Below, piece after piece: positions 6,889 through 64,000 of a DNA stretch of 64,000 bases. The DNA lies in NCBI RefSeq assembly GCF_003573695.1, contig NC_039363.1, positions 154,592,406 to 154,656,405 of the forward strand, in the 5' to 3' direction. Below the pieces are notes generated by a model that worked only from the letters and a program-made list of their open reading frames with translations, was not told the DNA's origin and searched no databases. Made by a program: the position numbers and the translations under genes. This DNA is from Papaver somniferum (lineage: Eukaryota; Streptophyta; Magnoliopsida; Ranunculales; Papaveraceae). The stretch's first letter is position 1; the number at the start of each line of letters is the position of its first letter.

Positions 6889-6970
6889 ATTGGAGGCCAT
6901 GGAAAATAATTGGGGGCTATGAAATTTTATTTGCACCCCAAATTTTTCAGGGGCGTATAAATACGAATAT
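6889..6970 (+). repeat. MULE A left terminal inverted repeat
   Basis: Begins ATTGGAGGCCATGG and continues with a second TTGGGGGC block at about 6910, mirroring the right terminus at 19327-19408. The similarity is clear over about 30 bp and becomes patchy further in. Confidence 0.6.
6956..6963 (+). promoter_or_regulatory. TATA box candidate for the PMD gene
   Basis: TATAAATA lies inside the left terminal region, about 270 bp before the ATG at 7236 and ahead of a CT-rich leader (7085-7140). MULE terminal repeats commonly carry the element's promoters. Confidence 0.4.
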
Positions 6971-7235
6971 GAAAATACTATTTTACCTTTACTAAATCTA
7001 AATCTTAAAAATCAGTTAATCACTAATTAACCACCCTAATTAAGTCCCTCAATTTATACCCTAAACTAAAAGAGAAATCAGTTTCATTTCTCTTCTTCTT
7101 CATCTTCCTCCCCTCCTCTTCATATTCTCCACCACCATTATTAATGACTCTCCCCGAAGAAAAAAAATTTCTTCAATTGATTCATCGCGTAATCGTCTAT
7201 GATAAAACTTTAATCGACGATTAACTTCCACAAAG

Positions 7236-10200
7236 ATGGCTCGTACAAAGCAGATCGCTAGAAAAGCACTTCAAATCCATAATCTCGTAGATACGGTAAA
7301 AGGAAAAGTATACGTGAGAAGAACTCCCAAACTCGAAAAATAGAAACCCAAGAAAGGAATGGCTCCAATTAGAAGGTATGTGAACTAAAACCCAATTTCT
7401 ATTCGATTTTTTGTTGTGTTTTGATTGTGTAATCGAGTTTGGTAACTGAAATTTAGAAGTTACAGTGTGTGGGTCGTTATTATCGAGAAATAATAACCTA
7501 ACGACCCTTGTGTTTGCATGAGACTGTATGAAAAATCGTTAGCATGTTAGGTTGAATATGAAGACCCTTTTTTTGCTACCTGAAATTTGTTTGTCCTAGA
7601 AAAGAGTCGTTTATGTATTGGGATGAAGATGACGACTCTTTCTGGACGACCCTTCTGCATTCTTAACGACCCTATGAGAGAAAATAACAGCCTCTCTGTC
7701 CAAATATTTTCAAGGGTCGTCATCTTTAATTGGTAGAATCATCATTTAGTTTTATACGTTACCAACTATATTAGATTCGTCAGTTTGTCCTGAAGGGTCG
7801 TTTATTTGTTAGACCATCACATTGATGACCCTTTAGCTGATGATAACTCATATTCTCATTTTTATACAATGTGTTTGGGATATAGTACCAAGAAGACCAA
7901 ATACAAGGTTGCAATGATGATAACTCCTCCTTCCAAAGATCCCCACCACGATAAATACTTACTTGCCGGTCCATTACGCGGAAGAAAGCCGAGTGAGGTA
8001 ACCTTTTTTATCAACGAACCAAGAGACAAAGGTGATGAGTCTTCGGATTCGTCGGAATCATCCTATCCTGTTATTTCCTCTAGCGGGAGCGATGAAGAAT
8101 AAAAAAATGAGTTACAACAAGATCCTCCCGTACAAGGTGAAGAAGAGGAAGAGGAGAGTGATGGTAATGGTAATGGTGATGAGGAGGATGATGGTAATGG
8201 TAGTGAAGAGGAGGCGGAAGAGGATGAAGGAAATAATGGTGGCGAAGAGAGGGATGATGAGGATGAAGGTAATGATGATGGTGATAAGGATGATGAAGGT
8301 AAAGATGTTGGTGATAAAGATGATGAGGAGGATAAAGGTGATGATGCTGGTAATAAGGGGGGTGAAGAGATTGAACAGCCGAAGCCGACAAAGAGGGTAA
8401 AGAAGGATGGAACGGATATTGCACCCAGCGCGAGACACGTTCCCGCTACTCATTTGCTGCTATCACCTCTTCGCAGTGGTAAACCCATAGGAGAACCTAG
8501 AGATAGCTGCGAATTTCTATTTGGATATCCCGGATCGTGGGCTCATACCATCTATGAGACAACCGTAAGAATCCAAACTTTTCTTGTTATTTGATTAGTC
8601 GATGTTAAGTTGTTTTTAAAAAAAAAATATATGTATATGTTTCTATTTTGTAGGATCATAAGAATGTCGCACGTCTTTTCAGGCACCAATCTTCTTTTAA
8701 GAAAATGGAGTTGTGGCCGCTAGAAGGTGAATGTGCAAGAGTCAGAGCGTATGTTAAAAACTCCGGTTTGTATGCTGCCGTTGAGAACTCAGTGATTGCA
8801 TATGACAAGGTCGCAGTATCTACTTTATGTTAAAGGTATTACGCTGAATTCGACATGTTCCAATTCCCTTTTAGCGAGATGGCAGTTACTCCTGATGATG
8901 CAGAACAGATATTAGGGTTGCAGGTCGAAGGTAAATCCACCAATGAGAAGTTCAAGAAAAGGCCTAGTTGGGATGATATCTATGGGTGGACCAAGAACTT
9001 TTTTGGCTGGGATAAAGAAACCACTGATGGGTTTTTTGTGCCGGGAACCAAATACGCGAAAAAAGAGTTCAAACTTGTTAAGATTATGGAGATGTTTGCT
9101 GGGACACAAAAAAAGGAAGACAGTGAGGGTCTCTCTGATATGGAATTTCGTTATGCGGCGGCCGCGTATTTGTTGTACGTCCTTACGTCAGTTATATTTC
9201 CTGACAACAAAGGTAATAGGGTCAACGCCAAGCTTCTTCAGCTTTTGGATCCCTTGGAAGATGTGAACAAATACTCTTGGGGGACTGCCATAGTTGCACA
9301 TTTGAATGGTCAGCTTTCCCAAGAATCTCGCGAACGAACTTCTCAAATTAATGACAATTTGGGTCTACTCCAGGTATTTGGATTGATGAAAGTTGTCTTG
9401 TTTGTGTAATTTTTTTTTCTTTAATCTTTTTATGTTGATTGTTTTGAATTTTTTCGTGTTATAGGTGTGGTTTTATGATCATTTCCCGTCACTGATCAAA
9501 GATAATGAAGACGTAAAACTCAGCTCAGAGTAGAGCGAAGGTAGTCCAACATGTAGACGGTATGAGTTCACTGGTTCTCAACATAAGGAACAAAATGATG
9601 CGTTGGTAGCAATGCGCCAAAAATTGGACAACATCACGACGAAAGAGGTAATATTTAATCTGTATAAGGAAATTAGAGTTGGTGCAATGGAAGAAGTTGT
9701 GTTTTACCATGGCCCTTTGTTTCACCCTTACGGTTTCTCAATGTACAATCCGATGAGAATCATGCGTCAACTTGGATTTATTCAAGATTCACCCGATGAA
9801 GGCTATGTACCTCCGTTCAAGCACAAGTTGGAAAAGTGTGAGGCTGACGTGTCGGACATAAAGGTGGTTTACGAACCTGAACCTCATACCAATCATTGGA
9901 ATGCTAGACACTCTATGCTAGTAGACATCACAGATTGGGCGCATGTCAATGAAGGTCACGAGGAAACAACAGATTATATTGTATGGTACGTAGGGTTCTC
10001 GCATTTTCGGGTGATACGGATAGATCAGACTACGGGTAGGAGGACCAATAGAGCATCCTCCTCTTCTTCTCAAGCTGACACTAGAGATGATACTACAATT
10101 CTTGCACTAGTGGTGAGTATTTATTTTTGAAATTGTGTTATAAATCTACATTCAAATATAAGTTTTCTAAGGGTGAATTCGTATTTGAATGCATATAGAG

Positions 10201-10528
10201 GGAACGAATGAAGCTTTTTGTCAAGTCATTGTGTTGCTCGGGTGACAAAGGAGAAGTGTTTGATCCTGAGAAGCAACGTCGGTACGTTGATTACTGCACG
10301 CACATTGAAAATCCCAATGCAAAGAAGATGTTTGTTGAGATTGCTAAGGAAGGTAAGAGGACCCGGAAAACACGTAGGCAGCTAGCACAAGAACGTGTTG
10401 AACAGGTGAAGTGTAGCCAACATAGAGATGAACAAGGTGCTAGGGAAGTTGGTGGTTCCCGGGGGGAAGTGATACTCAGGGTCCTCCTAAGAAAAGACGG
10501 AAAGTTTCCAGGTCAGGGAGGTAAATAG
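7236..10528 (+). pseudogene. Plant-mobile-domain (PMD) protein gene of MULE A, with histone-H3-like first exon
   Basis: Exons inferred from sites: 7236-7375 (donor GTATGT), an exon starting near 7806 and ending 8564 (GTAAGA), 8654-9373, 9465-10112 (GTGAGT), 10199-10528. Exon 1 starts MARTKQIARKAL, matching nine of the first ten residues of mature histone H3. Exon 2 encodes a long Asp/Glu/Gly tract (about 8136-8350) followed by PKPTKRVKKD. Exons 3-4 show the PMD signature: FQFPFSEMAVTPDDAEQILG, AAYLLYVL, KYSWGTAIVAHLNGQL, VWFYDHFP, MRQLGFIQD. This is the family of Arabidopsis MAIN/MAIL1 and of many transposon-borne relatives. In-frame stops occur at 7341, 8100, 8831 and 9531. Near the end a G6 run (about 10460) appears to have shifted the frame: the next frame reads PPKKRRKVSRSGR and stops at 10524, a nuclear-localisation-like tail. 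The join of exons 1 and 2 is uncertain. Confidence 0.68.
7455..7812. repeat. GAGTCGTTA/GGGTCGT motif array A1 (PMD intron)
   Basis: About nine copies on both strands within the putative first intron, for example TAACGACCC at about 7497, AGAGTCGT at about 7603, GACGACTC and GACGACCC near 7630-7655, and GGGTCGT near 7712 and 7795. The core is RGTCGT(T/C) or its complement. Confidence 0.75.
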
Positions 10529-10734
10529 AATATGGTGGTCTTGAGTGTTTCATTTTACTTTATGACTTGAACTTTTGTGTTTGTTGAAACAACTTATGTG
10601 TTTGGTTTGGATGGTTTGTTGAAACTACTTATGTGTTTGGTTTTTATGGATTGTTGAAGCTACTTTGTTTTCATAAGATTTTAGAAGGATGTTTACAGGT
10701 ATCTTTGTTAGAATAATTTTGGACTCTAAGGCAG

Positions 10735-11400
10735 ACAAGATTATACATTGTAGAAGAGTAGAGTCGTCAGCTTTAATTATAGCAGAATAACGACCCTAGA
10801 TGTGATAGTTGGATTTCCCATGTCAGAAAAAGAGTCGTTAAGTGACTGAAATAGCATACTAACGACCCACTGAGAAATTAAAACAAAGAGAACATCTTAA
10901 TTTTGATGTCTAGAGTCGTTACGGTTATATGGAAACCAATGAAGACCCTGGGTTTAAAAAACATCCAGGAGATGAACCAAATTATATATAGTTGAGTCGT
11001 TAGGTTGATCATATAGCATATTAACGATTCTAGAAGTGTATTAACTCCTGAGAATAGGTATATACAGTGGTTGGTAGTTATATGGAAACCGATGACGACC
11101 CTTAGTAAGAAAAACATCCAGGAGATGAACCAAATTACCTAAAATGGAGTCATTAGGTTTATCATATAGAACATTAACGACTCTAGTTGTGTATTAAATC
11201 CAGAGAATACCAATTTTTGGTATATAGAGACGTTGCTTTTTATATGCAAACCAATAACGACCCTTTGAAACAAAAACTTCCAGGAGATGAACCAACTTTT
11301 CTATAGTGGAGTCGTTAGGTTGATCATATAACAGAAGAACGAATCTGTTTACAGTCGTTAGTGTGGATATTATAAAGGTGGACGACCCAGTATTGAAAGT
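10735..11400. repeat. GAGTCGTTA motif array A2
   Basis: The densest cluster of the motif, with roughly 17 occurrences on both strands, several set in a larger repeated phrase: GAGTCGTTAGGTTGATCATA at about 10995 and 11310, and CATCCAGGAGATGAACCAAA at about 10961 and 11114. It lies between the convergent ends of the PMD gene and the minus-strand SANT-like gene. Confidence 0.78.
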
Positions 11401-11473
11401 TTAAATTGGAACGAGAATGCACTTTGATTTCATTAAGAAAATAACATTACATGAATCTCGTATTACATAAGAG

Positions 11474-11983
11474 TTAATATGGGTATTCTAGAATTTGACA
11501 CATAAAATGTTCGTCGATGAACCTCCTAAAACATCGATACAACGTGGTATATTCTTTGTGGTGAATGAACTACATTTCCCCGTTACAAATTCTCCCTAGC
11601 CCATTGAAACGTTCCAGCTGAAATTCAATAACTTCTTAAACTTTAGTATGATGTTTGTGTAACATATTCAATGAAACGATGCGAACTTTTAACGATGAAT
11701 ATTATCGGATTGGATTACTTACCTTTTCCCTAAGAGGATCTTGTGGATGATGTTCGTATACCATACTCCTAACCTTAACATACTCTCGCATTGAAATTTT
11801 CATGTGGTTGAATCGAAAATCCAAGTCTCTCCACTTGCTGTTATTTGGATTCCCGGTTCGACCGTTAAAGAACTCTTTAATTCTCTTCCAAAACATGGAA
11901 TAGATTTCATTCAGACGTTCACAAAACGTATTAGCAAACGGTTTAACGAGACATGAATCTTCATACGGTTTCCATTCCGCCAT
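11474..11983 (-). pseudogene. SANT/Myb-like accessory protein of MULE A (minus)
   Basis: Exon 1 (11723-11983) gives 87 residues starting MAEWKPYEDSCLVK, with FWKRIKEFFNGRTGN and WRDLDFRFNHM, then a GTAAGT donor. Exon 2 (11474-11617) reads EYTTLYRCFRRFIDEHF and ends in a normal stop. Spacing of Trp and hydrophobic residues and the two-exon layout resemble the SANT-like proteins often annotated as glutathione S-transferase T3-like or NAM-associated, which are also found in other DNA transposons. A TAG interrupts exon 2 at codon 16. Two more divergent relatives lie at 16859-18387. The function is inferred to be DNA binding. Confidence 0.5.
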
Positions 11984-12094
11984 TGCCACTAAAAGTTTTA
12001 AGTATTTTGGTAGAAAATGGGATGTTTTGGGCGAATTTTTCAAGAGGAGGGGGTTGTACTTTACAGAAAGAAACCCCAACGGTCGGATTTTTTG

Positions 12095-12190
12095 AAATAC
12101 ACAACCAGAGTCGTTACTTTATTAATAAACACAATGACGAATGTAGAGTCGTCACGTTGGAACTTCTAGATTGATAACGACCCTTAATCA
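12095..12190. repeat. GAGTCGTTA motif array A3
   Basis: Short cluster with AGAGTCGTTA at about 12110, AGAGTCGTCA at about 12145 and TAACGACCC at about 12175, between two minus-strand accessory genes. Confidence 0.65.
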
Positions 12191-12274
12191 GAATAAGTAG
12201 AAACTATTAAACACCATTTAGTTGAAACTACAATACATCAAGTCTAACATAAATCGTACTCAACAAATTACATG

Positions 12275-12704
12275 TTACTTCTCGGTGCGAGATTGAACTA
12301 CCATTGCGGCTTCGATGTGATAAAACGGCTCTCCTCTCCATTTGATATATGCATCTTGGGCCGCACGCCTATCCCATTTTTTCCTATTGAGAAACTCGTT
12401 GTACTTGGTGCACAATCTCATAACGTGAATCGTCCTATCACGAATGTGGGACAATTCATAATCATAGCGTAGTTTCTTGTTGTAATTAACGAAAGGATTC
12501 CAACCAACTTGAATCCAAAATATACTTTCATGTTGATGTTCTTAGGGAAGATCTTTGACGATGTAATAATTTTTAACCCATTCGGTCTCTTCCTCGACTT
12601 ACTTGAATACTTCCTGGAGATGCGCTTGTTCTTTGCCTCGTTTTTCGGCCTCGCGCTTCTCTTCTTCTTCCTTCGTAGGGTATGGCGTGTAACTGTATGG
12701 TTTT
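12275..12704 (-). pseudogene. Lys/Glu-rich MULE A accessory ORF, unrecognised
   Basis: One minus-strand frame reads YPTKEEEEKREAEKRGKEQA, then (past an in-frame TAA) VEEETEWVKNYYIVKDLP, then (past a second TAA) IFWIQVGWNPFVNYNKKL and RDRTIHVMRLCTKYNEFL, ending in TAA at 12275. The charged first half suggests a coiled coil. I do not recognise a family. The steady amino-acid composition across the two stops argues for a decayed gene. The N-terminus is not resolved; a further upstream exon is possible. Confidence 0.42.
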
Positions 12705-12879
12705 TAGTAGGTCGCATGTTTCTTTTGCGTATCTCTTCTTTCATTTACAATATTTATTTGGTTGGTCGCTTGCATCTTCTAAGTATGTTTTCAATTGATG
12801 ACGGAGTTTCCATTGAAAAAAGTATTTTGTGAGGTTGTTTTCAATTCAATTTGCTAGTCGATGGCTTCCTCTATATATA

Positions 12880-13250
12880 GAAAAAATAGCAACGACTATA
12901 TTTTTTGGGAATAGTGTACACAAAAAGAGTCGTTGGGGGGAATCCTAAGAGTGTCGTCCATGTATACATTATAGTGGATGACGACTCTTTGTTGAAAAAC
13001 ATCCAGGAGAACATCAAAGTTATGAACGTGAGAGTCATTAGGGGATATATTCATATGGTTAACGACTCTTAGATGCAAAAACATCATGGAGAACACCAAA
13101 TTTTTAAACGTGAGAGTCGTTATGGTTTAAGTTTATATGGATGACGACTCTTTGTTGAAAAACATCCAGGAGAACACCAAATTTTTAAACGTGAGGGTTG
13201 TTATGGTTTAAGTTTATATGGATGATGACTCTTTGTTGAAAAAACATATA
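12880..13250. repeat. GAGTCGTTA motif array A4 with a larger tandem unit
   Basis: Motifs here sit inside a repeated phrase: GACGACTCTTTGTTGAAAAA at about 12970 and 13142, with a one-base variant at about 13224, and CGTGAGAGTCGTTATGGTTT at about 13109. The repeats lie downstream of the OTU end of the transposase gene. Confidence 0.72.
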
Positions 13251-13378
13251 TGCCGCAAGATAAAACGCATTGTATTCATAAGCATTCCTCAAAATACAAA
13301 TATCTGGGTTCAAGAGATAACCATTGTCAAAAAGTAAGCTTAAAAATGCAATGCAAAGCTGAAAATAAACATATTCTT

Positions 13379-16330
13379 TCACGATTCATCGCCCATGTCT
13401 AAGTAGATCGGGGTTGGGTCCATAGCATTCCAAATGTTCATTCCATACTCATATTGGTTTGTCCACTCCTTTGTGTACTCTCCCCAATCACCATAGACCC
13501 GTGGTAGAGGACATTTGTCGGAAATCTTCAAGCTTATGTAATGGTTATTGTTGACATGTGCCATTACAATTCTTCTTTTCTTTGTTGCCGTCTCGCACCT
13601 AGTTTTTGAGGGTACGTACATACAAGAGCCTCCGGGGAAGCCTTTGCTGAATACAATTACAACACAAGTGAATTTGTCCGCTAAAAGTTGACCACCAAAA
13701 GGCATTTGCATCCAAAACTTATAACCGTCCTTCGTCGACCCCTTCCTCCATTTCATGTTAGGGTCTTCTCTTTTGTATATCCTTCCAACATCATTGTCAC
13801 ATAGAGTTAATGTCTTCAACGAGTTTGGAGGCCATTTTATTTCTTGCATATTTGATTTTTGTGATATTAAGTTCGTCGGCCTCGTCGAAATTCCCTAATT
13901 GTTCCGTTACAACATGGTAACCACAATTTCCATCGTCGTCAACGTCCTCGGTTGATATAAGGTGATCCAAGATGACGTGAGGAAGTTGATCGGTATACTC
14001 TTTATACAAAGTGTAAGCAACACGATGTGATCTTCCTTGGGCATCTCTAGGGGTGTGTGGATTACCCTTTATTCCTCTTATCGTCACCATTATGCACGTT
14101 TGGCTTTGTTGGGTACCGACCACATGCTCTACATCCATGTCTGCCTTTTGTTTCACTTCTATTTCACATTGGTTCAAATCTTGCTTTTTTGGCCGACCCC
14201 TTGGCTTGTGGAGGAAAGACTTCTCATACTCCATTTATTCCGCCTGGACATACTCCTGACGTGATGGGTCACTTTTGCAGCTCTTGCCCGCATTCACTGT
14301 TTCTCTAAACAACTTTTTAGTTGTCGTTCTACCTCGTGGTTTTTGTTTGATTGGCTCTTCTTCTACTCCCAAGATCTTACGGGCAGCCGGCCACATATTA
14401 GAAACCAATATTTGTCTTCCTGCACAATTCATTTTTCGATATTTCTCATTGATATACTTTCCAATCTCCAGGTCTCCAAATTTTTCATCAGCGGCTCCTG
14501 TGGGATCTGGGGTGAATGAAAGTTGCTTCCAAAAAGGATCGACATCTTCAATAGAAATGATCCCCTTGTACCCACCAAGCTTATGTTTACACGGGAGGCC
14601 AAGCCACGTCTCGGTTGTACAATTACATTTAATCACTATTCCATTGGAAGCTTTCGCTCGAAATTTGTTAAGTTCAGTCATCATATGCTTTATTTCCCAC
14701 CATGATACTTGGTGTCCAACCCCACGTATAAATTCTTTGTCTTCCATGTATTGCTTCATAAAACGGTCTTTACTATACTCCGCATGAGTCACTATCTTAC
14801 TAAGATCATTCTCGGCGTGCTCGTGAATAGCTTCATGTACCATAACTACCCCACCAGTGTTCTCTTGAAGAATTTTTTCAAACGTCCATGGGACTGCTCT
14901 GCAATACTCGTGCACTCATTTTGGTAGTGCTTGTACTTATTGGTCCATGCAGAAACAAACATCTCCTTCCAAGGATTCAACCATGTATCTAGGAAATAGT
15001 CGACCACCTTCTTATGATCCGTACTCCAATCATCAATAATCTTCTGCAAATTTGCATAGTACTTTATATCGGTCTTCGAATGAGCCAAATGGTCCCAATC
15101 TTTGCAGAAATCCTCCCATGGATCCCCATCTTCATCATATTTTTCCTTTTCTTTCCTTTTCTCTTCCACTCTCTCTTTTTTTGAAAGTTGACTTAGACGC
15201 TCGTCTTACTCCTTGGAACGTTGATTACCCTTCGCAGGTTTGATCTTTTGGATATGGTTCTTGCAATTAGAAAAAAGTTTCATTTGGATGTTCCACGTAC
15301 AAAGGAAATGTTGAGCAAGTGGAATAAATTTACGTGTATATAACATGCGTGTCTCTTCGCCACGGTAAATCAACCTCACTTGTTCCAACCCCCAAACATA
15401 GTCCTTTATTTCTTCTTTTTCCATAAAGCACCTTACAACGGTGAATGATTGTTTATCCGAAGTGTAACTAACCACGTTCAACAACGGCATGTTATACTTG
15501 TTGGTCTTATAGGTGCAATCTATGAACAAGACCTGGTAAAAACACTGAGCCAAATCCACCATCCTAGGATGGGCAAGAAAAATATGAGTCACTTTGTCGC
15601 CCGGACCCACCGTTGTTTGCATGGCATAGTTAAGTTTTTCTGCCAACCATTTTGATTGTTGCATAATTAATCTACCATCCCATTCAGTTCTCTTGATCGT
15701 TTCTTTGGCAGCGTACATTGTGGAAATAATAGACAAGTTTGTCTTATCTTCCGCCCTTATTGCATTTAGGATCTGAAGGGGCCTACATCCCTTCATCTTT
15801 CGGACCTTTTCCATTTGATGTGGATTCAATATGGCATATGCTGGGAGTCCTAAAAGACTTCTAGGTGGAGGATGGTTGTGACGACCATCCGCAATACTAT
15901 AGAAACTCCACAGATGAGTTTCATGATGCCTTTTGAAAACAATCCTGCATTTTATCTTCTTCGACGAAGTTTTGTAGACCCTCGTCGTCTTCTTCTCATA
16001 CTTGTAGTTCTTCCCTTTGTGACTTTCTTCCTTATCCCTTGCTCTCTCGCATACCATCTTCATTTGATTATAATAAACGTGTTTGCTTTGAACAACTGCA
16101 CACATCTTCTCTTTTGCCTCGGAAATAATCCATTCCTTGACCTCAGCCTTAGTTTTCCACGTCTACATTAAACAAATAACACGTTCATGAAAACACTAAT
16201 TAAAAAAAAATCATAAAGATATACATCGATTCAAACAATAAAAACCTACCAAATCAATCATATAGTGTTGGGAGGTATCCGGACAGATAGTGGAGACGGG
16301 TTCAGGTTGAGAGCTCGCACGTACAACCGA
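13379..16330 (-). pseudogene. MULE A transposase with FAR1, MULE, SWIM and OTU domains
   Basis: Upstream exon 16250-16330 (SSQPEPVSTICPDTSQHYMI) joins a main exon starting at 16162 (TWKTKAEVKEWIISEAKEK). Then come a FAR1-like region (C and HNH ligands, IADGRHNHPPP), the first catalytic Asp in FIDCTYKTNKYNMPLL, the Glu motif TSIAEQSHGRLKKF, a SWIM finger (CNCTTETWLGLPCKHK), a basic link PRGRPKKQ, and an OTU cysteine-protease signature DDDGNCGYHVV with a later HVNNNHYISL. MULE transposases fused to OTU domains are known in plants. Damage: the segment expected to hold the second catalytic Asp is missing between RLIYRGE and ETRML; TAA stops at 15206 and 14235; frameshifts near 14880 and near 13800. 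It should have cut and joined the element ends in the nucleus; this copy cannot. Confidence 0.8.
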
Positions 16331-16374
16331 CTACAGACAAAAGAAAAAATATCATTAAACAATCGTCAATTTAT

Positions 16375-16680
16375 AAGATGTAGACATGACAACCCTATTG
16401 TTTATTTTGCTTAACCATACAAACGGTCGTCATTTTTACATTTGCAAAACGACGACCCTAACAGTCGTCAACTTTATTTACAGGTTAACGACCGATAAGT
16501 TTGAAACAAGATCCGTCGTCATGGTTAATTTTTGCAAAACAACGACCGTTTTTCGATAAATGACGACCCTTTTTATACACAGACGACTCTACATTGACAA
16601 ATATAAACCATTCTGCCCAGTTTTCACCTTGAGTCGTCACTGTATATATATATCTAGCTTGACGACTTTGTACGAAGTTA
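16375..16680. repeat. GACGACCC/GTCGTCA motif array A5 in the divergent promoter region
   Basis: About ten copies (for example GACGACCCTAACAGTCGTCA near 16450, GAGTCGTCA near 16632) lie between the 5' end of the minus-strand transposase and the plus-strand SANT-like gene. This is where a shared bidirectional promoter would be expected. Confidence 0.72.
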
Positions 16681-16769
16681 TTGCGGACTTTGAAAAACTT
16701 TGACTAGTACGAGCAGTTATTGCAGAAGTAACCGTTTTTTTTTTTAAAGTAGTTGTTGGGTTTTTTTCC

Positions 16770-16776: not shown

Positions 16777-16858
16777 GGAGACCTATCCCTTTGAAAGTTA
16801 TTTACACATCACTTTCAATTTTCCCAAATAAGCCACCCATCACTTTCAAACACCAGAA

Positions 16859-17474: not shown

Positions 17475-17780
17475 AGTAACTATGGTTCAGAAAGGGTCGT
17501 CATGGTTTGTAAAAAAACAAGTGACGACTCTATAGATGGTTTGAAATTGTTGGCATGAGTCGTCACTTTTGAAGAAAGACATATTAATGACTCTAAATGT
17601 TATTTAACACAGAGACTTTCTGATAGTAGAGTCGTCAGCCAATAAACAAAATAAAAGACGACTCTTTTCATCTTCAACAGTCGTCACTTTATTATTATAT
17701 AAGGTAACGACCCATATAGCACTTAATGTGAATTTTGAATTCACCAAATGTGGTTGAGTCGGGCAACGGTTAAAAATTAA
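17475..17780. repeat. GAGTCGTCA motif array A6
   Basis: About eight copies between the two SANT-like paralogues, for example GACGACTC at about 17523, GAGTCGTCA at about 17557 and 17629, and AAGACGACTC at about 17655. The array leads into the TATA box of copy 2. Confidence 0.72.
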
Positions 17781-18504: not shown

Positions 18505-18850
18505 ATCCAGTGCAAGGGTCGTTAGTATATTAACTAAGAAACCGAACGAATCTACATAAAATTTGAAATGGCTGGCTAGGGTCATCAACTGCTATGAATG
18601 CATATATGACGACTCTAAGTGTTTTATTTATTGAGAGTTTTGGTTTTAGAGTCGTTTGTCTGTAAACAAAAAAAACTAACGACCCTTTGTGACATAGCTA
18701 AAAGAGTCGTCAGTGTTTATCACACCACCCTAACGATTTTTCATAACCTGGAAAAGTTGCAGGTTTAAGTCATCATTGGTAGTGTCAATATACTGACGAC
18801 CTTAAAGAGTCGTTAGTTTATACAACACCCGACTATAACGACCCTCACTC
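18505..18850. repeat. GAGTCGTTA motif array A7
   Basis: About ten copies, including AGGGTCGTTAG near 18517, AGAGTCGTT near 18648, CTAACGACCC near 18675, AGAGTCGTCAG near 18703 and AGAGTCGTTAG near 18807. They lie between the second SANT-like gene and the minus-strand terminal ORF. Confidence 0.74.
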
Positions 18851-19326: not shown

Positions 19327-19408
19327 TAATGGGCAACACAAATTAGGGTGGGGTGACCTTTTTTGTCCTCTAGTGCAAGGCCCCCAATCAATATCCATGG
19401 CCCCCAAT
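19327..19408 (-). repeat. MULE A right terminal inverted repeat
   Basis: Read on the minus strand it begins ATTGGGGGCCATGG and has a second ATTGGGGGCC block, like the left end at 6889. It ends about 50 bp from the HUA1 stop codon, so MULE A lies directly in the 3' flank of HUA1. Confidence 0.6.
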
Positions 19409-19460
19409 AAAGCTAGGAAAAAAAAACACTAAAATACAAGTACAGAAAATTTTAGCTCGG

Positions 19461-22400
19461 TTAACTTGTGGAGCCAAATGAGATGGCTACTTCAGGTACT
19501 ATTGTGTTATTATTATTATTACTTTCTCCGTCCTCTGCAGCAAACGAAGATCCTTGTGTTACTGTAGGCATGGCTACAGCCTCCCCCAATGGGGGGGCAG
19601 ATGAAGATCCTTGTACTGTTGTAGCCATTGCTACAGCCTTTCCTGATAGGGGGGCAGATGAAGATCCTTGGACTACTGTAGCCATGGCTACAGCCTCCCC
19701 TGGTGGGGGGTGATCAAACCTGCAACTAGAACCATATTTGCATGCCCCTGTCTTCATGTAGAAAGGGCAGACCACTGCACCCTGCAAGACCAAAATAATT
19801 TCAAGATTACAACTTCAGACAATCTTATACGTCACACTGTCAACAGATCATCAGTAAGTGGAACAGTTGCAACTAATGGAATAATTGCTGCTTAAAATCA
19901 AAGTGAAGTATCATATGCACAAGATAACTAATGGCATAATTGCTGCTTAAAATCAAAAATCAAAGTAAAGTATTATATGCACAAGATATAAACTGTACTA
20001 ACACAACATATACCTCTCTCCTAGGTAGTCCTGCAAGGGTGAGTTTTACATCCTGCTTAGGCATTGACTGAGTCGCTGCTGTCCGATCTATCGGATGATG
20101 GTACTTGCATCTCTCACCAAACTTGCAATCCCCGGTTTTCATGTAAAACTGCAGAAAATGAAATTGGGTGATTAAGAGCTCTGAACGACTGCCTAGCTTC
20201 CCAAGCAAAATAAAGATGACAACTGACAAGTGTTCCTGAATGAAGACAAGAAATTTACTTGGAGAGGCAAATTACTATAGTTTTTTATCCTCAATTCCTC
20301 ATGAAAATCATCTTCTTATTTTTTTAATTTTCAGATACCTAATAACATACCCATGGAAGCCATATATACCATGTAGGGTCCAAGTGAAGATGAGATAAGA
20401 GCTTCTTGTTTTTGTTGCTTTGAAATGATCCACTTGACCAAGCTCACGAAAAAGAAACCTATTATTGGGGCTGCAAAGCTTTGGATTTTCCTAAATGTGG
20501 ATACGGGGGCCTAATTTGTAGCAAAAGTCATAAATACCTTGCCCCTATAACTAATCTAAATCTATATCAAAAACCTAAATTAAACCGCCTCTTCTTCTCC
20601 ATTGCATGGTCCATTTTCCTCCGTCTTCTTCTTCAATTTCAAATAAAGAAGAAGTACTATTCGGTTTTCATTGGTTAAGGTAACAATCGAAAACCCACCA
20701 TTTATTTCTGCTTTTGATTGGTTAAAAGGTTCGACTCAATTAAGTTGAGATAAGGAAAAAAAAACAGCTTCCGAAACTGTTTATTGCCTGGAGTTCTTAT
20801 TTTCCCAGCCGTAAATTAACTATAATGGCTGGGAAAATAGGGATTCCCAGATGTAAAACATGTCTGTGGTTGGGAAAATAAGATTTTCCTAGCCATATGT
20901 AGTCGAGGTTGGGTTTACGTCTAGGTATTTCCCACCATAATAGATAAAGTTCCCAGCCGTAACGCTTATGTCCTAGCCGTAAATATAGATTTACGAGTAG
21001 GAAACCATAACTCCCAGTCGTAAATTGGTTTACGGTTAGGTCCTATCCAATGTCCCAACCGTAAGTTCTTGTCCCATTACAATTTTGTTGCTTCTAATCG
21101 CTTAAAGGACGTAAAAAAATTGGATTTTTTCTGTATTTTACGGCTGGGAAATCAAGAAATTCTAACCCTAGCATCAGTACACAGCTGGGAAATCTCGAAT
21201 CCCAGCCGTAATCAGCTGTCTGTGGCTCTGAAATGAAGAACTCCTAACCGTAGACAAGAACTTAGAGGTGTGTATGACTATTTTGAACATACATTTCTTC
21301 ATATTCTTCCAAGGTTTTCAAAAACATCCTCCTACTTCTCCTCCAAAACAGAAATTAAAAAAAATATTGACTTTCAAAATATAAACCAAATTATTAAGCT
21401 AATTAATCACTAATCTTCAATTAGTGTACTTAATCCATTGTATTAGCACTAATCGAGGGCATGTTAGCCATTAGCAAAATTAGTTGGATAAGCCCCACCC
21501 CCATGTTGCAATGCAGACAAAACTAAAGATCCCATAGTAAAGTTCAACTTACTTCACATTCCGTCTGTCCAGGTCGTTGAGGGTAGACAGCCACTCCCAA
21601 CCCCAGCTGCACAAGAGGTAAAATGAGGTGAGGATGGCTTCAACGAATTCAAGGGTGAGTTACAAAGACCGAATCTTTTTGTTAACCAATACCCAGATGA
21701 TGCTCAAACATCTCTAGGAATTTGGTAACATGAAAAACATGTTATTCAAAACATCACACCTGTTAATAAATCAAAATAAAAGATATTTGCATTTAGTAAC
21801 AGTAGGGAAGCAGAAAAACCCAATGCCCTACATATTTTCGTTAAAATTTTCTGCTTCTGTTCCTATCCATCTTTATCAGACACTCATCAATATCACGCAC
21901 ATGCAACAGCAGCACCCCCTTGGTGAATATATCCTAGCTCGAAATATACCATTACTTTGTGGATTCTGTTTTCTATGCTGGGTACTTTTGGGACGTGGAG
22001 GTGGCATTTTAGTACTTCATAGCTGCAGCCTAGAGGTGCCATGACATGCAACTGAACACTAAACGAAGCCCAAGTAACAAGGATCCTACAAATTCAACAA
22101 ATCTGCTCTTCAAATCCGGACACCGCTCTCGTGTCTGACACTGGTGGGCAAAGCAGCGGGTACCGCAGTCCCATTTATCCTCTAGGGTTTCATAAAAACG
22201 TACAGGCTAATATATCTTTGTTCCACAGAACAACGCTTGTTTGAGTTGACTACAAACATTGTATGTCATAGTTGCGCAGGAATGAATAGTCTATTAGTAC
22301 ACTTACGGAAAAAAAAAAAATAGACTTAGTATTAAGAAGTACTTACCGTTGCTTGTCCAAGCCTTGGGTCGATGGTCGGAAGAACCATAGCAGCAGGATT

Positions 22401-28135: not shown

Positions 28136-28610
28136 ATCACGGCTGGGAACCCATGAACTCCTAGTCGTAATACTGTTTTACGGCTCACACTTAATGAACT
28201 CCCAGCCGTTATCAAAATGTTATGGATGGAACGATGAATACTCCTGGTCGTAACTATAAAATTACGGCCAGGTTTTTTCTACGTGCATGGGAAGCATTTA
28301 ATACTGTCGGCGGCGGTTAGGTTTCCTGGACGAAAATATTAAATGTTATTTAATGATGTCGGTGTCGGTTGGGTTACCCAGCCGTAACTCATTTTACGGC
28401 TCGTTTTCTAGGCCGTAAGCTGACTCATCCAGTTACATACCAATTTACGACCCGGAATTCATGGCCGTAAATCATTTACGGTTCGGAATATCATTTTTCG
28501 ACTCAGCCGTATACGTTTTGACGGCTGGAATATCCCTTGTAGACCCAGCCGTGTAGGTTATTACGGCTGAATATATACTTTTCGACCTAGACGTTTATGT
28601 GTTTTTAAAT
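28136..28610. repeat. CAGCCGTAA motif array B1
   Basis: About a dozen copies on both strands, for example CACGGCTGGGAA near 28138, CTCCCAGCCGTTA near 28199, CCCAGCCGTAACTC near 28379 and TTACGGCTGAA near 28562. They occupy the intron of the MULE B transposase gene. Confidence 0.78.
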
Positions 28611-52014: not shown

Positions 52015-52500
52015 GCTTACGGCCAGGTTATACGTTGACACGACCTAGCCGTAATGACCCAAGAGACCTTTTCGCAGAACTACGGAAGAAACACCAAGAC
52101 GTTAACAAGTTTACGGCTCGGAATCCTAGCCGTATTTTCGGGTACTGTCAGAATAACGGCTGAAACACCAAATCGTGAAAAAATTTACGGCTAGGAATCG
52201 TAACCGTATTTCTGGGAACCGAGATTTTACGGCTGGTAATTCTAGCCGAACATCCAATTTACAACTGTTAATCCTGGCCGTAACTCTCCCTGGAATGTCA
52301 ATATCAGATTTTACTTAGTTACGGCTGAAACACCTAACCGTTAATCACATTTAGGCTATAAATTTTAGCCATAACTCTCCCTGGATTGTCAATATCAAAT
52401 TTTACTCCGTTACGGCTGAAACACCTGACTGTTAATACCATTTCGACTATAAATGTTAGTCGTAACTCTCCTTGGATTGTCAGTATCAAATTTCACTTCA
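52015..52500. repeat. CAGCCGTAA-type motif array B2
   Basis: About fifteen copies of TTACGGCTGAAACACC or CTAGCCGTAAT-like words on both strands, for example near 52018, 52109, 52146, 52179, 52214, 52321 and 52410. A longer unit, ACTCTCCCTGGATTGTCAAT, also repeats at about 52375 with variants near 52285 and 52465. Confidence 0.77.
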
Positions 52501-52681
52501 TTATACTTAAACAAGAATTTGATAAATTAATATTCAAAACACTAGTATCCATTCATTCAAGGTAAATTAATACCCCATTGCTTAAAACAAACGAAATCAC
52601 CCAAATCCATAACCTAAAACATGTTAAAAGTAAGTCTGCATAATGAAAAGATGGAATGACTTAAACAAGTACATAAAACAA

Positions 52682-53827
52682 TCATCCACTACGACCAACA
52701 ATCTTGGGAACATCCTCAGAAGATGATGAAGAACTGTGGGGAGTTTGGGAACCACTCATCCAATCATCCTCGTCGTTAATATATAGATCATCCTTCACAG
52801 GATTATGTAACTCCTGAAACCTGAGAAGCAGTGTTTTTTGTTGGTCGCAATCCAAATATAAAACCTCCTCAATGTTACAGATAAGTCCCCTGGAAATCCA
52901 CTTAGCTCGCTTGAACTATTTCCACATCATTCAATTAATGGTGGTACATAATTTGAGAAACATATACAAAAAAAAAGAATCATATACTTAGCCTACGTAC
53001 CATCATCGTAGCAATATCACACATTAGTAGTTCCTGAGGTTCTTTCTCCTTTTCAGGGTTCCTAAAAATAACGAAAAACATATCAGAAGATAGGACCAAT
53101 TCACACGAAGTAATACAATTACGGTTAGGAAACAACAAACGACACATCTGTTTTACAAACTATCGGCTGGAAAAAGTGAGACTTCCTAACTGTAAACATA
53201 GTCTCGCTAAGAAACATGTATAAGACCCATCCGTTTGACACAATTGCGTCCCGGAAGTGTGACACCACCTAACAGTAAACATAGTATCGGCTGGAAAATA
53301 TTAATAACGGTTAGGAAAGTTTAATTACGGTTAGGAAACTCCAAGTCGAAACACTCATCACCAAATTTTACTCTGCAAACACAGGACGACTTACGGATGG
53401 GAAAGTCTCATCCGTAAAAGTATTCCGCGGCTGGGATCTCAAATTTTCCTAACCGCATGAGACATTAACGGCTGGGAGTTTTGATGTCCCAACCGTTAGG
53501 TATACATTACGGCCAGGATGATATGATATCCTAGTCGTAAACACTTCAGAAAAAGATTTTTGGAAACCCTAAAACCATCGATCGAACCTATTTTTTCAAT
53601 TTAATGGTAAAATAACTGGTGAGTTTTTCGATTCTTACCTAGTAGGAGTCATTTGTGGAGGATTCACAGGTGTTTGCAGATTGGTTCACCATATCTTCAT
53701 TCAAAGGAACATCAATAACTTGCCCAGTTTCAGAATCAGGGTTCAATCTGCCGGATCTTGTCACTATCTTGTTGTCATCTTGAATCAACTTTAGAATCGA
53801 ATCACGTTGAGCTGCTTCAGAAATCAA
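52682..53827 (-). pseudogene. MULE B right-end accessory gene, unrecognised
   Basis: Exons inferred on the minus strand: 53639-53827 (MISEAAQRDSILKLIQDDNK, ending at a GTAAGA donor), 53001-53061 (NPEKEKEPQELLMCDIATMM, donor GTACGT) and 52682-52915 (FKRAKWISRGLICNIEEVLY, then DDWMSGSQTPHSSSSSSED, stop). The second intron is short; the first holds motif array B3. A TAG stands directly before the first donor, and the phase of exon 2 does not follow from exon 1, so either the model is incomplete or the gene is decayed. I do not recognise the family. Position and orientation match the short ORF at the right end of MULE A. Confidence 0.45.
53110..53540. repeat. ACGGCTGGGA/TTACGGTTAGGA motif array B3
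   Basis: Some twelve copies, including TACGGTTAGGAAAC near 53121, TATCGGCTGGAAAA near 53161, AACGGCTGGGAGTTTTG near 53467, TCCCAACCG near 53487 and TTACGGCCAGGAT near 53507. They lie in the first intron of the right-end gene. Confidence 0.76.
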
Positions 53828-55690: not shown

Positions 55691-56010
55691 TTAAACAAAT
55701 CGAACTTCGGCTAATGACTTGTCAGCCGAACCTAGGGTGTTCTTATGAAGAATACTCAGAGGTTCGGACGAAGAATATTCAGAGGTTCAGCTGATAGTTT
55801 GTCAGCCAAATTTTCGAAAGCATGTGTAGACAAGTTATTAGCTGAACTTCACTATATTCAACGGATTTGGTCAAAAAATAGGACAACCGAACTCGGTGGT
55901 TAATTATCAGTCGAAGTGTTCATCGGCAACTTCAAAATGAAGAACAATTAACAGTTCGGCTGCTAATTTGTTTCAATTGTCGAACTTTACTCTGTCACTA
56001 CCGTAAAACT
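55690..56010. repeat. TCAGCCGAAC/GTTCGGCTGA motif array
   Basis: About ten both-strand copies: TTGTCAGCCGAACC near 55720, AGAGGTTCGG near 55750, GAGGTTCAGCTGATAGTTTG near 55781, TTAGCTGAACTTC near 55837, ACCGAACTCGG near 55877, ATCAGTCGAAG near 55898, CAGTTCGGCTGCTAATTTG near 55943. The motif differs from those of MULE A and MULE B/C. No termini were found, so the host element is not defined. Confidence 0.65.
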
Positions 56011-58148: not shown

Positions 58149-61100
58149 TTACCTTTTTCCATAAAATAATATATACGCTTCAGAGCGGAGGACTTCTGCT
58201 AGAGAAACCTCACGTGTGTGGGAATCACTAGCATAATACCATGTAGAACCCTCATTATCTTCCTCTTTCTTCCCTCTGCTTTTGTCACCTTTCACATATG
58301 CAACATAATGGCCTCCCCTCATACTCCCCGAGTGCTCCACAATTCCAAGCAGAGAATATTTGTACTCGCCTTTCCCAACAGACCTGCAAAGACAGTTTGT
58401 AAAATCAAATCCAAACATGAACTCATTAAAAAGATCATACTCAATAAAAACCACAAATTCAAAAACCACTGCAAGAATTTTTAGACAATTAATTTATCGA
58501 AAATAACAAAATAGAATAGGAAGTTCAACAATAGTGCAAGGAAAATTCACGGTTTTGTGCAGAGATGATATCTTTAGATAGTAATTGGACAAGATTCAAA
58601 TTAAACAATGCAACCCACTTCACAATACTATTGCATTCTCAAATAAGTAGCAGGATAACATTCGTCAGCGTCAGGTGAACAAATCACTTTTGTGGCTACA
58701 AAAATATACGACTTCCAAGATAGAAAGAACTACAGAAGGCACATGGTTTGATCGCCGAGTCATGGGATGAAAATTAAAAAATTAACACTTCTAAACTGGA
58801 AATACTTAAACAGATATCAATCATAACCGCCAGTTCCTTTCTAACATTCGAGTGCCTAGCAATTTCAAAATAATGCAAGTGCCTTTCATAATGGTGGGAC
58901 GAATCCCTATTGGATGAAATGTTCATGCGAAGACTCAACTATGGCTGAAATGGACAATTTATGGTGGGAATTAGAGCACTTGACAATTCACAGCTGATCG
59001 GTGGTTGCTCATTAAAACTAAATCCTATTTCCTAATACAGTCATGGCACATTATTCCCCATTGGGTTTATGGAGGAGAGCTCAAGTGCCAGCCCTGATGT
59101 ACAATCTAGGATTTTCTTTTAGGTTGTTACCTATTTTGTGTTAGAGATCGGCAAATGATGTTTTTTGGACAGTTGTACATTAAATTGCAATAAGTTAAGC
59201 TCTGCCCCTACAATCTAAAAAAAAGCATAGGAACATTATGGATAGGACTTCATGGGGGTGTGGCTTGATCACGTATTTGTAACAATCACCCTTGTTTTCT
59301 CAAGAGACATATCCTTATGACCTATGTGATAGAGATATGAGTTTAAAAGATTGTATCTCATAGTTTCCATTATTGCAGGTGAGCAATGAACAACTCAGAC
59401 TGGGTTGACGGGTTGAAAGATGTTTCAGTTAGTTCTTTTAATTGTGTTTAACTCACACAATAACAATGACACATAATAAGTGTCAAACAACAAAGATAGA
59501 AACAGATAATCCCAATCGTGAATTAGCAGGAAAAACACATAAATGCGCAATTAGATTGTTTCTATTCAGAACGAAAGCAAAAACAAAAGCTAACAATTTT
59601 TCAATCAAAACAAAGTCCAATCTGGAAGGAAAAAGAAAAACAAATATTAAGGCGTAACAATATGAAGTATTGACAGGAGCTTTTAACATGTTTTACCCTA
59701 TTTATTTTTTAATACTAGATTCTAACGGAAGGTGCTCTAGTCAATCTAAATAAGACATGTGTTTATTTTCCAAGGGTTCCATTTGTTTGGATTAGTAGAA
59801 TCATCGACAGAGTTGCTGTGGATTTCGCCTAGAGCTTGCTTTATCTATTCCTCTTTGATTCTCATTGCCATTACTTTATTTCTATCTTTTGGCTCGAGAG
59901 TCCATTAAGTATACTCTAGAAATGCTTCTCATTGTTGAGGACACAGAAATGTATACAATGGTGGAACAAGATTTGAAAAGCAAGAAAATGTATGAACAGT
60001 TGAATAAGATCAAAATGCATGGTTTATAAAACAGAAACTGAAAAAAAAATGAATACAAACATGAAAAGGTTGGAGGTTTACCTGGGGTCCATATATGGTC
60101 GAAGATCGATTGTTTCTTCAAAATTAACATGGCCACTCAATTTACTTAAGCGGCCACGAGTATCTTGGCTGAACCTCTTCAAATGAATGGTGAGAATTGA
60201 AGGAGCACTATTAATTAGAATCCTTTTAGTCGCATCCCTCTTTACTTTCAGACTTTTAGAGTCCACTTCCTCGCCTTCACCGGATTCCTGCGTTGCGGCT
60301 GAACAATCCGAATCCATATTTTCTGCTCGATTAATACAACTTACAGTAGTACCTGACCCATTTGCATTACATGAATAATCGACTTGACAATTAGACGTGT
60401 CAACTATAAGATCAGCATTACTTTCTTGATCCTCAGTAATACTCTTACATTTAGAATAGTTTGCCGAACCATCAGATCTCACCAACTGGGAGACTGGGGT
60501 CTGATTAGTTGATGTGGAATGAATATCACTATCCTGCTTCCCCCTGTCTAAATTTTCATCTATATCCAATAAAGAACTTTGACCTTCATTGATCTGACAA
60601 TTCAGACCAATAGTTGGCTGGCATTCCTTACTTTCTTCCGGTACTTGATCTTGCATAATCTTAGAACAATTCCCACAGAGCCAACCATGGTCACTGGAAA
60701 GAAGAAGTTCAGCTTTTGTAAAATGTGCTAAACAAGTATCTATGGAAACTGGTGCACCCTTATCATCAATTTCATCAGCATCAGATTCTGTACTGTTTCC
60801 CGCAAAAAACTTAGATTCTAACATATCATTTTCCGGGAAGCTTTTTTCACCAAACCAAGATCCTGAGTTGGGAACAGAATCCAACTCCGGTTCATTAAAC
60901 AAATCTCCTAAGCCATCAAACCCTGTATCTTGTCCACAGCCCGCAACAGACAAGGATGTCTCAGCTTCCTTGGTCAATATATCCTCAGTATTTGAAATGT
61001 CCTCTTTATATGGAAGCAAAATAGCTTTAGAATCTGGAGCCTGTGAAGGGAGTTCATCCTTACAAGAGTTTACCTGGGAAGAACCCAAATCAGGTGTGGA

Positions 61101-62636
61101 TTCCTTATTTGCGGAGACAACCTGGCTTTGTGAGTCCGAGTTATTCTGTATCATATCAGTTTGATCAGATAGTTTCTCCTCAGAAGCTTGCATAACTGGA
61201 TCATCATTATTTTGAGAGAGCAAAACACCCTTATCTAATGCTGCATCTGGGCCAAGATAATCCAACCATGAAATACTATCAAGTGCTTCTTCCATGAGAG
61301 GCAAAAAGACTGGTCCTGATGAAGACTCCTTGTTTCCCGATATGCCTGAAGAGGTGTTAGCCAATACAAGAACACCATCATTTTTTTCCTTTACCTGGAT
61401 CTTTCCACCTTTTCTTACTTCCCTTTTTGGAGGCAACTTCTTTTTCTTAGGTCGACTGAGTACTGATGGTTTCCTCGACGAATGTTTCTTCGTTGGTACT
61501 TCCAGTGATAGGTCTAAAAAAGGCTCATACACATTAGATGAGTGACCACATTCTACACAAGATACAGTACTAGATAGTTGGCCTCCAAAGATCATTTCCA
61601 CCAAGACGGGAGACGAATTTGAACTGGTCACATCTTTCTCACTGTTATGTAATTTTCTCACAGCCAACTCTTCGGTACACAGCCCGTCAAGTAAGCATCG
61701 AAGTAACTCATGGCTGTCCTGTTGCTGATATCCGCTAAATTGGGGGGCCTTAGCACAAATGCATCCAAATAGGTTTTTAGGACTTATCCCATTTCTTGAG
61801 TCTGATATGAGGCTTGTTTCAATGAAAAGTTTCTTCAGTGATATAGTAAGAGGTCCAGCAAACCGATTCAGTTTCATCAAGTGATCGCGCAATGGGTCCA
61901 TGGATAGAAGGTTTTGCATAACGGAATTAAAGAAGCAGGTGTTTCCAAGATTGAGCAAGCCTCGCACTATGTACCGACCACTTCCATCCAGAACCAAAGA
62001 TTCAGCATTTTCAATTTTCATTATGCCTCCAACATCTTCGGGATCCATTGAAGATCCTCTCGATGACTTTCCTTTAATTGCCTTTACAATGTCACCTAGA
62101 TGGTCTTTCTGCTCACCATTATCATCTGATTTTTCAAAAGGGATTAACGCATCGCACTGAAAGCAATATCGTAGTTTGGGGTTGTTAAATTGAATGATGC
62201 AAGGGTGACGGCTGGTCTTGTAATGCTGGAAGGCATGTGTTTGTGGAATATTTGGATATCCAACACCCCCACAAGAAAAATGCCCACATTCTAAGCACAC
62301 CCAAACAGGTTTTAATTCTGATTTCTTTTGCACAGAGCCTGCTCCGTTCTTCTTCCCGTGCTTGCTCCTTCCTTTGGCTCCCCTCCTCTCACTAGCATGT
62401 TCTCTACAATCCCTACACTTAACAGATTCTGATGAACTAATTTTCGAAGAAATTTTATCAAAATGCACACCCTCGAAAATATGGCTACACAGCTTTTTCT
62501 CCACTACCAGCAAAGAGTCATTATTCACATTCACAGGAGGTGGATTTAATTTTGCCAAAGATGTTCTAGAGGAATCAGAGGAAACCGCCCTCTCCTTTTG
62601 TATATTTTTTGTCTTCCTTTTTATTTTCTTCCCCAT
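58149..62636 (-). CDS. Ubiquitin-specific protease, UBP1/UBP2 type
   Basis: Two coding exons, 60082-62636 and 58149-58383, give 929 residues; ATG at 62636 follows a TTTGCAG acceptor at 62649. An N-terminal UBP-type zinc finger spans about residues 50-160 (C50, H52, C74, C77, C114, C117, with H-rich FQHYKTSRHP). The catalytic Cys box GLLNLGNTCFFNSVMQNL places Cys at 234; the QQQDSHELLRCLLDGL box follows. A long acidic insert (about 360-760) splits the domain. The His box SGSMRGGHYVAYVK (His877) and WYYASDSHTREVS are in the last exon. It cleaves ubiquitin from proteins; the zinc finger normally binds the free ubiquitin C-terminus. Arabidopsis UBP1 and UBP2 have this architecture and a similar length. 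No damage seen. The stop overlaps an AG/GTAAG donor-like site. Confidence 0.92.
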
Positions 62637-62648
62637 TGAATAATCTGA

Positions 62649-63430
62649 CTGCAAACAACAGGAAAACATTACTACTTTAAGAAGTACCAGAAAACAATCA
62701 AATCATTCGAAGTAAAGTAACCACCCATCATTAAACCATAGGGCAACAACCTAAACACGAAAAGTTGCAACTTTTAGAAGGAGCTTATTATCAGTAAGCA
62801 GATTGTATTATATTCAGTTCCAATCTCTTACATGCCCTATCTATTACTTTACTCAAAGATCCATTGGTCTTGAACACTGGTTCAAGTTCAGTTATCAGGT
62901 AACAACTCTGACGACAACTTGAAATCTCATTATAACTCAACTTAGCGCAATAACTCCGAACTAATGTGCTGATGAGCAGGTGAGCTAATAAACAATGTAC
63001 ATAGATGTTTCTAACACTAACATAAAAGAAAATAAATAAATATCTACAATAATATCTGAAACTTTAGCAAATTAAACAAAAAGAATCCTAGTTAAACTAA
63101 TGGGTTTCTACTTAAATAATCTTCAAAAGTATTTATGCGTAGATAGAGACACAGATTTCTACCTTAAGGATGGATATGGATTTTAGAGACTATAGAAAGA
63201 AACAGAAAATGATAATTAAATAGAAAAAATAAAAAACCGGTGCATTTTACCAGTACATAGTGTTAGTATAAATAAAAGAAAAAGAACAACAGATATCTCT
63301 GTTGTACTTAATAATCTGAAGCACGAAACTCCAAACCCTAGATAATCAACATATAGGGGGGAATGGAAGAAGAGAGATAATGAATTCGGTAACAGAGATA
63401 TAACGAGAGATGGAGTTAGAGAGATCGTAC
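62649..63430 (-). other. 5' UTR intron of UBP1/2
   Basis: The donor reads ACCAAG/GTACGATC at 63430 and the acceptor TTTGCAG at 62649-62650; the ATG is 13 bases into the next exon. A leader intron in this position is common in plant housekeeping genes. The untranslated first exon extends right from 63431 to perhaps 63500; the cap site is not fixed. Confidence 0.55.
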
Positions 63431-63649
63431 CTTGGTTTTAGGGTTAGCGAGGAGGTGGATGAGGTTAGGAGGGGAGCAGAGTGTTGGAGTTACTATTGAA
63501 GAAACTGGAAAGGGGGGAAAAAAGTGATAGTGTTCAAGGCAAGGGTTAATGCCTTCAGGTGGGACAATATCGGGAGATATTGTAATACAGACTGGGTAAA
63601 ATTGTCTTTACCTAGTTAGCACGTGCACTGCACGCGAGTATCTTTGATT

Positions 63650-64000
63650 CTATTTAGCCGATTTTAGGAGGCCCATGTACCTAACATTTTTAGGGGCGAC
63701 CCCGAAAGGATTAGGGCGATTTTTTTATTCCCAACCAAGGGCTGGTGTTGTGGGATGTTCTAGTGGCTCGGAAAGTACCTAAATATCCTTATATAATCGG
63801 TAGTTAAATATCGTTTATAGCAACCGATTATTACTTTGTTCCTCTCAAATTAAATTTGGGCTACTTCCACAACCGGTAGCTAATAAACATCCTTAGACTA
63901 CCGATTGTAAAATTAGAGAAAACTCGAAGTTTCATCTTTTTTAGCAATTTCGAATTTGGGGCATCTATCATAATCAGTAGAAAATTGAAGATATACAAGT
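63650..64000. mobile_element. Edge of another MULE-like element with its own motif
   Basis: Near 63657 the sequence GATTTTAGGAGGCCCATG resembles the MULE A left terminus, followed by a G/C-rich terminal-like block. After it comes an array of a fourth motif: AATCGGTAGTTAA near 63798, CAACCGATTATTAC near 63818, AACCGGTAGCTAA near 63870, CTACCGATTGTAA near 63897 and ATCAGTAG near 63973. The element runs off the window, so only about 350 bp can be judged. Confidence 0.45.

Follow-up and report, generated by a model that had tools for sequence, protein, structure and literature searches.

Arrays of inverted half-site pairs beside PMD genes in opium poppy, candidate binding sites for an element-encoded protein

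Introduction

In the literature covered, sequence-specific anti-silencing of transposons has been described for VANDAL elements of Arabidopsis. According to the accessible parts of these papers, VANC21 binds clusters of YAGTATTAY in non-coding VANDAL21 DNA and strips methylation there (PMC5735166), VANC6 targets elements with AGTTGTCC/AC (PMC5735166), DUF1985 is named as the VANC domain in a figure legend (Hosaka 2017, PMC5735166), and the VANC21 motifs are arrayed in one orientation (Hosaka 2017, PMC5735166; Sasaki 2023, PMC10398659). Here we analyze a 64-kb stretch of contig 6 of the 2.7-Gb opium poppy genome (the window), which contains a Mutator-like element (MULE), named MULE A, that carries arrays of a short motif and, opposite its transposase, a gene for a protein with a plant mobile domain (PMD).

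Like the VANC21 and VANC6 systems of VANDALs (as far as the accessible parts of PMC5735166 and PMC10398659 describe them), the poppy system combines an element-encoded protein, a short motif clustered in non-coding DNA and tandem repeats; the motif shifts between related families, and one predicted poppy model ranks VANC21-DNA first. It differs in that the poppy protein lies over the Pfam cut-off for PMD and under that for DUF1985, and it comes from a different plant. MULEs with a captured PMD have also been reported, and their use of the domain in anti-silencing was offered as a tempting speculation; these are PMD-transposase fusions from grasses and Amborella, and the accessible part of that paper does not mention a target motif in the element (Ikeda 2017, PMC5418596). 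In poppy, unlike in the MULEs described there, the PMD is encoded by a separate convergent gene accompanied by target arrays. A link between a PMD protein and a short DNA motif is also seen for MAIN/MAIL1 and the DOWN motif CATGCAGTTT (PMC7156037, PMC9899485), but in the parts covered these proteins act in host silencing and gene regulation, their direct reading of DNA is unproven, and DOWN is unlike either of the two poppy half-sites described below. Our search of the open-licence PMC literature revealed no publication that describes target arrays of PMD proteins in transposons.

Results and discussion

Inverted half-site pairs in the non-coding DNA of MULE A

MULE A extends from 6886 to 19411 and is bounded by 32-nt terminal inverted repeats (84%), with a MULE transposase on the minus strand, which exceeds the PF10551 cut-off, and the PMD gene on the plus strand (Table 1). 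The degenerate word RGTCGTYA occurs at 44 sites in the window, 22 per strand, and 43 of them lie within 7472-18836, compared with a mean of 1.1 and a maximum of 5 in dinucleotide shuffles of 6887-19411 (n = 500). All nine window copies of the exact form GAGTCGTTA/TAACGACTC are found within 10832-18807 of the element. Just one of the 43 sites starts in exon-like sequence, which was marked by hand and makes up 4,697 of 12,525 bases, and among 30 loci including the window copy, 17.2 kb of PMD exon contain 6 copies of GTCGTYA vs. 424 in 90 kb of flank. The original prediction for this window, that the MULE A word fills seven arrays outside exons, is therefore borne out, and the observation is stronger than was stated there. 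As with the VANC targets, an element-specific motif is clustered in non-coding regions.

Neighboring sites in these arrays are paired at a fixed distance. Counting the bases between 7-bp cores over a range of 10-40, 11 of the 13 gaps between convergent neighbors (plus strand, then minus strand) in MULE A are 18, 19 or 20, the other two being 15 and 39. When MULE A is taken together with 29 relatives and two more distant loci, and spacers at least 60% alike are collapsed, 28 of the 39 gaps in convergent pairs measure 18-20; divergent gaps in this set are broad, and so are same-strand gaps, except for a slight accumulation at 14 (6 of 37). Same-strand sites at a 21-bp spacing also exist beside the convergent pairs. 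Genome-wide, GTCGTYA-N-TRACGAC outnumbers its reversed control by 7162 to 1177 for N of 10-40 and by 5320 to 315 when N is limited to 17-20, so that three quarters of the pairs fall in 4 of 31 gap lengths. The genome-wide count proposed for the 9-mer gave a divided answer: the lone word GAGTCGTTA was rejected as enriched (13,875 vs. 29,738 for its reverse), whereas the inverted pair is enriched. Neither the fixed-gap inverted pairing nor the PMD gene nor the genome-wide association had been part of the original prediction.

It might be argued that such arrays are by-products of tandem or inverted repeats, that is, amplified units or sources of small RNAs that no protein reads. Tandem repeats do make up some of them (a 153-bp repeat forms part of array 2, and an 81-bp repeat is present in array 4), and several of the listed genome-wide places of the pair are copies of one local repeat. 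However, the half-sites and the gap are conserved despite differing spacers once similar spacers are collapsed, with 5320 of 7162 pairs at 17-20, and we consider this explanation hardly probable.

Half-sites follow PMD lineages

A genome search for the PMD family identified 30 loci, of which 16 form a group (E) distinct from the 30 A loci and 14 are others. Lineages were assigned by best protein match alone, motifs were counted on both strands, and single-motif loci (L001-L008) were left out of all counts. The 16 E loci contain 253 sites of AATCGG[AGT][CT]T in 64 kb, with at least three in every locus, and no A motif, whereas the 30 A loci contain 416 A sites in 107 kb, with at least three in 29 of the 30, and a single E site. 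The 14 other PMD loci, including two (L043 and L053) whose best match is P0022 and in which no array was detected, have four A sites and one E site in total, none with three of either. Hence, the match between motif and PMD lineage is clean.

Convergent E pairs have gaps of 18-19 in 10 of 12 independent cases and are found genome-wide 7605 vs. 22 times; all 50 listed matches are 32 or 33 long, which is the same gap. E and A pairs thus share their geometry but not their half-site. Two more distant A-type loci hold both GTCGTYA and ATCGTYA forms, a mixture that represents a step towards E. Palindromic units roughly 48 bp long (AATCGGNTTAC...GTAANCCGATT) also occur in the flanks of the E loci (L039-L064), many of them repeated at intervals of about 63-70 bp.

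The arrays are thus element-specific and follow the PMD lineage, and the sequence data support the suggestion that they are candidate binding sites for an element-encoded protein. The companion idea of one motif per lineage holds cleanly for the PMD lineages A and E but not for two other elements of the window, MULE B and its relative C, which have one common motif and in which no PMD was found. Association with a lineage cannot by itself separate a reader from a passenger, so the arrays might attract a host factor, such as a transcription factor acting in an enhancer-like manner, with PMD linked to them by shared element descent; the accessible literature also leaves room for another reader of the DOWN promoter motif linked to MAIN/MAIL1. 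On the other hand, two host factors would account less well for one geometry with two half-sites than would an element-encoded dimer that changes, and VANC21-DNA, a DNA-bound anti-silencing protein, ranks first in one of two structural models. We therefore regard a host reader as quite improbable.

The PMD protein and its possible relation to VANC21

The PF10536 (PMD) cut-off of 34.9 bits is exceeded by the window exon (Table 1) and by nine relatives (76.8-158.2 bits). Matches to DUF1985 lie in the same PMD stretch and fall below the cut-off of 35.1 in the window exon and in seven of the nine relatives (14.5-20.9 bits), the other two having no match; the poppy PMD is thus not classed as a VANC member. 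Among 125 listed places of the MULE A transposase, 53 lie no more than 15 kb from a PMD place on a list of 150; this number is a lower bound because both lists hold only best-scored candidates, and all 53 share one convergent layout. When a predicted model of a relative was compared with PDB chains, VANC21-DNA ranked first, which is suggestive only, so that a VANC21-like fold is partly supported by this modeling. The original prediction had recognized no VANC-like protein here and considered an independent solution. Given the PMD gene, the rank of VANC21-DNA for one relative (not recovered with a second model) and the subthreshold DUF1985 matches, the data do not support independence from VANC in the case of MULE A and its PMD lineage.

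Proposed explanation and its weighing

We propose, with a fair degree of confidence, that the PMD proteins of MULE A and its relatives read inverted half-site pairs and guard their own element against silencing. These opium poppy MULEs carry a PMD gene opposite the transposase, and its product may bind the paired sites that are dispersed among the non-coding gaps of the element encoding it. Binding would probably be by a dimer, given the inverted orientation of the half-sites and their constant spacing, with cores 18-20 bp apart. The half-site is specific to the PMD lineage (RGTCGTYA in A, AATCGGNYT in E) and the spacing is constant, and bound PMD might, by analogy with VANC21, keep the element unmethylated and unsilenced while leaving other elements untouched.

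Several points weigh against this proposal. Stops interrupt the PMD gene of the window copy, which cannot be active as it is. The poppy pairs are convergent at a fixed gap and do not form the same-orientation arrays of VANC21 (as these are described in the accessible text). The Foldseek E-value of the VANC21 match is 0.24, and the model is of low confidence, with a mean predicted local distance difference test (pLDDT) score of 51.6: values of 70-95 are confined to portions of the PMD, and some stretches within the matched range (212-553) score below 50; in a second model (P0022, mean pLDDT 56.7), VANC21 is not listed and all rows concern a C-terminal coiled coil, and a PDB sequence search gave no match up to E 10. 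E elements, which are covered as the PMD gene with 1.5 kb on either side, count only as putative MULEs, and no A-type transposase was found within 20 kb of E loci when 28 PMD loci were compared with 45 of the 125 listed transposases. Finally, the B/C motif is similar to that of A although PMD was not found in the parts seen (about 3 kb of one fetched B element lay outside the scan), and the transposase is an alternative binder, as the B fragment of this protein falls just short of the cut-off of the AFT transcription-factor profile (20.5 vs. 21.6 bits).

These last observations bear on another possibility, namely that the transposase or an accessory protein binds the arrays for transposition, comparable to subterminal repeats, and not for anti-silencing. 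The transposases of A and B are related (about 35% identity over 173 residues) and so are their motifs (AGYCGTWA), PMD accompanies A and E and not B, and the AFT profile is nearly reached. However, the sites of MULE A extend to the middle of this 12.5-kb element through gaps and an intron and are absent from the terminal repeats, and the motif follows the PMD lineage, from which the transposase lineage was not separated in the comparison. In our opinion, binding for transposition is unlikely. If the proposal of PMD as anti-silencing reader is true, the strategy would be older and wider and would build on a domain shared with proteins of angiosperm hosts (MAIN/MAIL1). The A and E lineages, which differ in half-site but not in geometry, offer a direct and cheap test of DNA reading by PMD, as well as natural pairs for mapping specificity residues.

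A histone H3-like start in A-lineage PMD proteins

Exon 1 of the PMD gene is present at 40 genomic places, counting the window copy, in which an in-frame stop lies downstream of the start MARTKQIARKA; the exon is also part of several predicted proteins of poppy, among them P0023 and P0028. Nine of the 11 residues of MARTKQIARKA, and likewise of MAKTKQTARKA in P0023 and P0028, are identical to the N-terminus of histone H3. An H3-like start was seen at 7236-7274 of the window and in P0023, P0028, P0029, P0030, P0032, P0038, L076 and L077, with a consensus of MA[R/K]TKQTARKA in the closest A-lineage proteins, and the chance of at least 8 of 10 H3 matches is about 1.5e-7, given the composition of A-type peptides. 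More distant members retain less (MARTKRTKRLA in P0038 and, by eye, MARTNEYKGKF in L076), and the three E proteins compared share one or two of 11 residues with the H3 start. Capture of a longer H3 piece is not supported, since only the first 11 residues fit well: for the remaining exon 1 of eight A-type peptides, between 47 and 386 of 500 shuffles reached the H3 score. The L077 peptide, read partly in a wrong frame, was excluded from this comparison.

Judging from these sequences, the A-lineage start could be a histone-tail mimic, and we found no paper on such a mimic in a plant transposon in the open-licence literature. A broader and more tentative view is that PMD might be an ancient family of proteins that read paired half-sites with drifting specificity but fixed geometry, with DUF1985/VANC as an offshoot, MAIN/MAIL1 as host members, and the H3-tail copy of the A lineage engaging or soaking up the H3K4/H3K9 machinery at the element that encodes it.

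Arrays of the other elements

The B/C motif arrays of the original prediction were recovered, with nine exact copies of CAGCCGTAA in three clusters and RGCCGTAA clustered at 20.8-21.2, 28.2-28.6 and 52.0-53.5 kb. The inverted B pair, AGCCGTAA-N5-35-TTACGGCT, was tried genome-wide and showed no enrichment (125 vs. 169 for the reversed control), another point against the proposed reading; unlike A and E, B and C therefore lack evidence of fixed pairing. A small multi-exon gene occupies the position that PMD has in A (L075, 2035-3010; window, 52500-53900, minus strand), and a Pfam scan of its first exon gave no family over the cut-off. Under the proposed explanation, B/C elements must either require a reader of a different kind or have lost the one they had: with RCCGTAA arrays, a pair that is not enriched and PMD not found, they may have a different reader, be read by the transposase or depend on an element located elsewhere.

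The last two motif vocabularies that had been proposed (55.7-56.0 kb, and 63.7 kb to the end) are weak in the form stated, as TCAGCCGAAC has one window copy and ATCGGTAG three, one of them at 25.9 kb; AGCCGAAC has three. Inspection by eye of the 63.7-kb end revealed a single AATCGG...CCGATT pair, whose 5-mers are separated by 23 bases, the spacing of E pairs.

Features of the window

The features are collected in Table 1.

Table 1. Coordinates of array, gene and terminal features in the 64-kb window
Feature	Position	Strand	Remarks
Left terminal inverted repeat, MULE A	6886..6917	+	84% complementary to 19380-19411 across 32 nt
PMD gene, start of exon 1	7236..7274	+	reads MARTKQIARKA
Motif array 1	7472..7722		intron 1 of PMD gene; pair 7473-7505, gap 19
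Acidic repeat region, PMD protein	8103..8594	+	
PMD exon	8834..9409	+	PF10536 66 bits (cut-off 34.9); DUF1985 22.2 bits, under cut-off (35.1)
PMD second half	9534..10130	+	29.4 bits; alone, under cut-off
Motif array 2	10762..11360		downstream of PMD gene; pairs 10763-10794, 10834-10866, 10996-11028; gaps 18, 19, 19
Motif array 3	12109..12182		pair 12148-12181, gap 20
Motif array 4	12979..13149		pair 13116-13148, gap 19; 81-bp tandem repeat
MULE transposase exons	13379..16162	-	PF10551 46.1 bits in 15206-16162 (cut-off 27.6)
Motif array 5	16425..16667		pairs 16464-16492 (gap 15), 16515-16567 (39), 16633-16666 (20)
Motif array 6	17495..17712		pairs 17496-17528 (gap 19), 17680-17711 (18)
Motif array 7	18517..18843		pairs 18706-18737 (gap 18), 18809-18842 (20)
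Right terminal inverted repeat, MULE A	19380..19411	-	partner of 6886..6917
B-type array	20806..21212		RCCGTAA, 7 sites in 20430-21540
B-type array	28163..28568		upstream of second MULE transposase fragment (30727-31649)
C arrays	52017..53540		B motif; flank small minus-strand gene also in L075
D cluster	55706..55962		AGCCGAA variants; exact copies too few to stand alone
E-like inverted pair and variants	63796..63905		AATCGG...CCGATT; gap by eye

MULEs are characterized by terminal inverted repeats and a target duplication of about 9 bp; inspection of the ends of MULE A by eye revealed no clear 9-bp duplication. Between its arrays, the regions 11450-12800 (minus strand) and 16840-18420 (plus strand) contain apparent remnants of four small accessory open reading frames in two pairs, and a Pfam scan of these four pieces gave no family over the cut-off. 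Elsewhere in the window, two close copies of an apparent retrotransposon polyprotein were recognized by eye on the minus strand (33903-37544 and 41914-45623, the second more open), and a long open reading frame at 60078-62702 (minus strand) resembles, also by eye, a host ubiquitin-specific protease gene.

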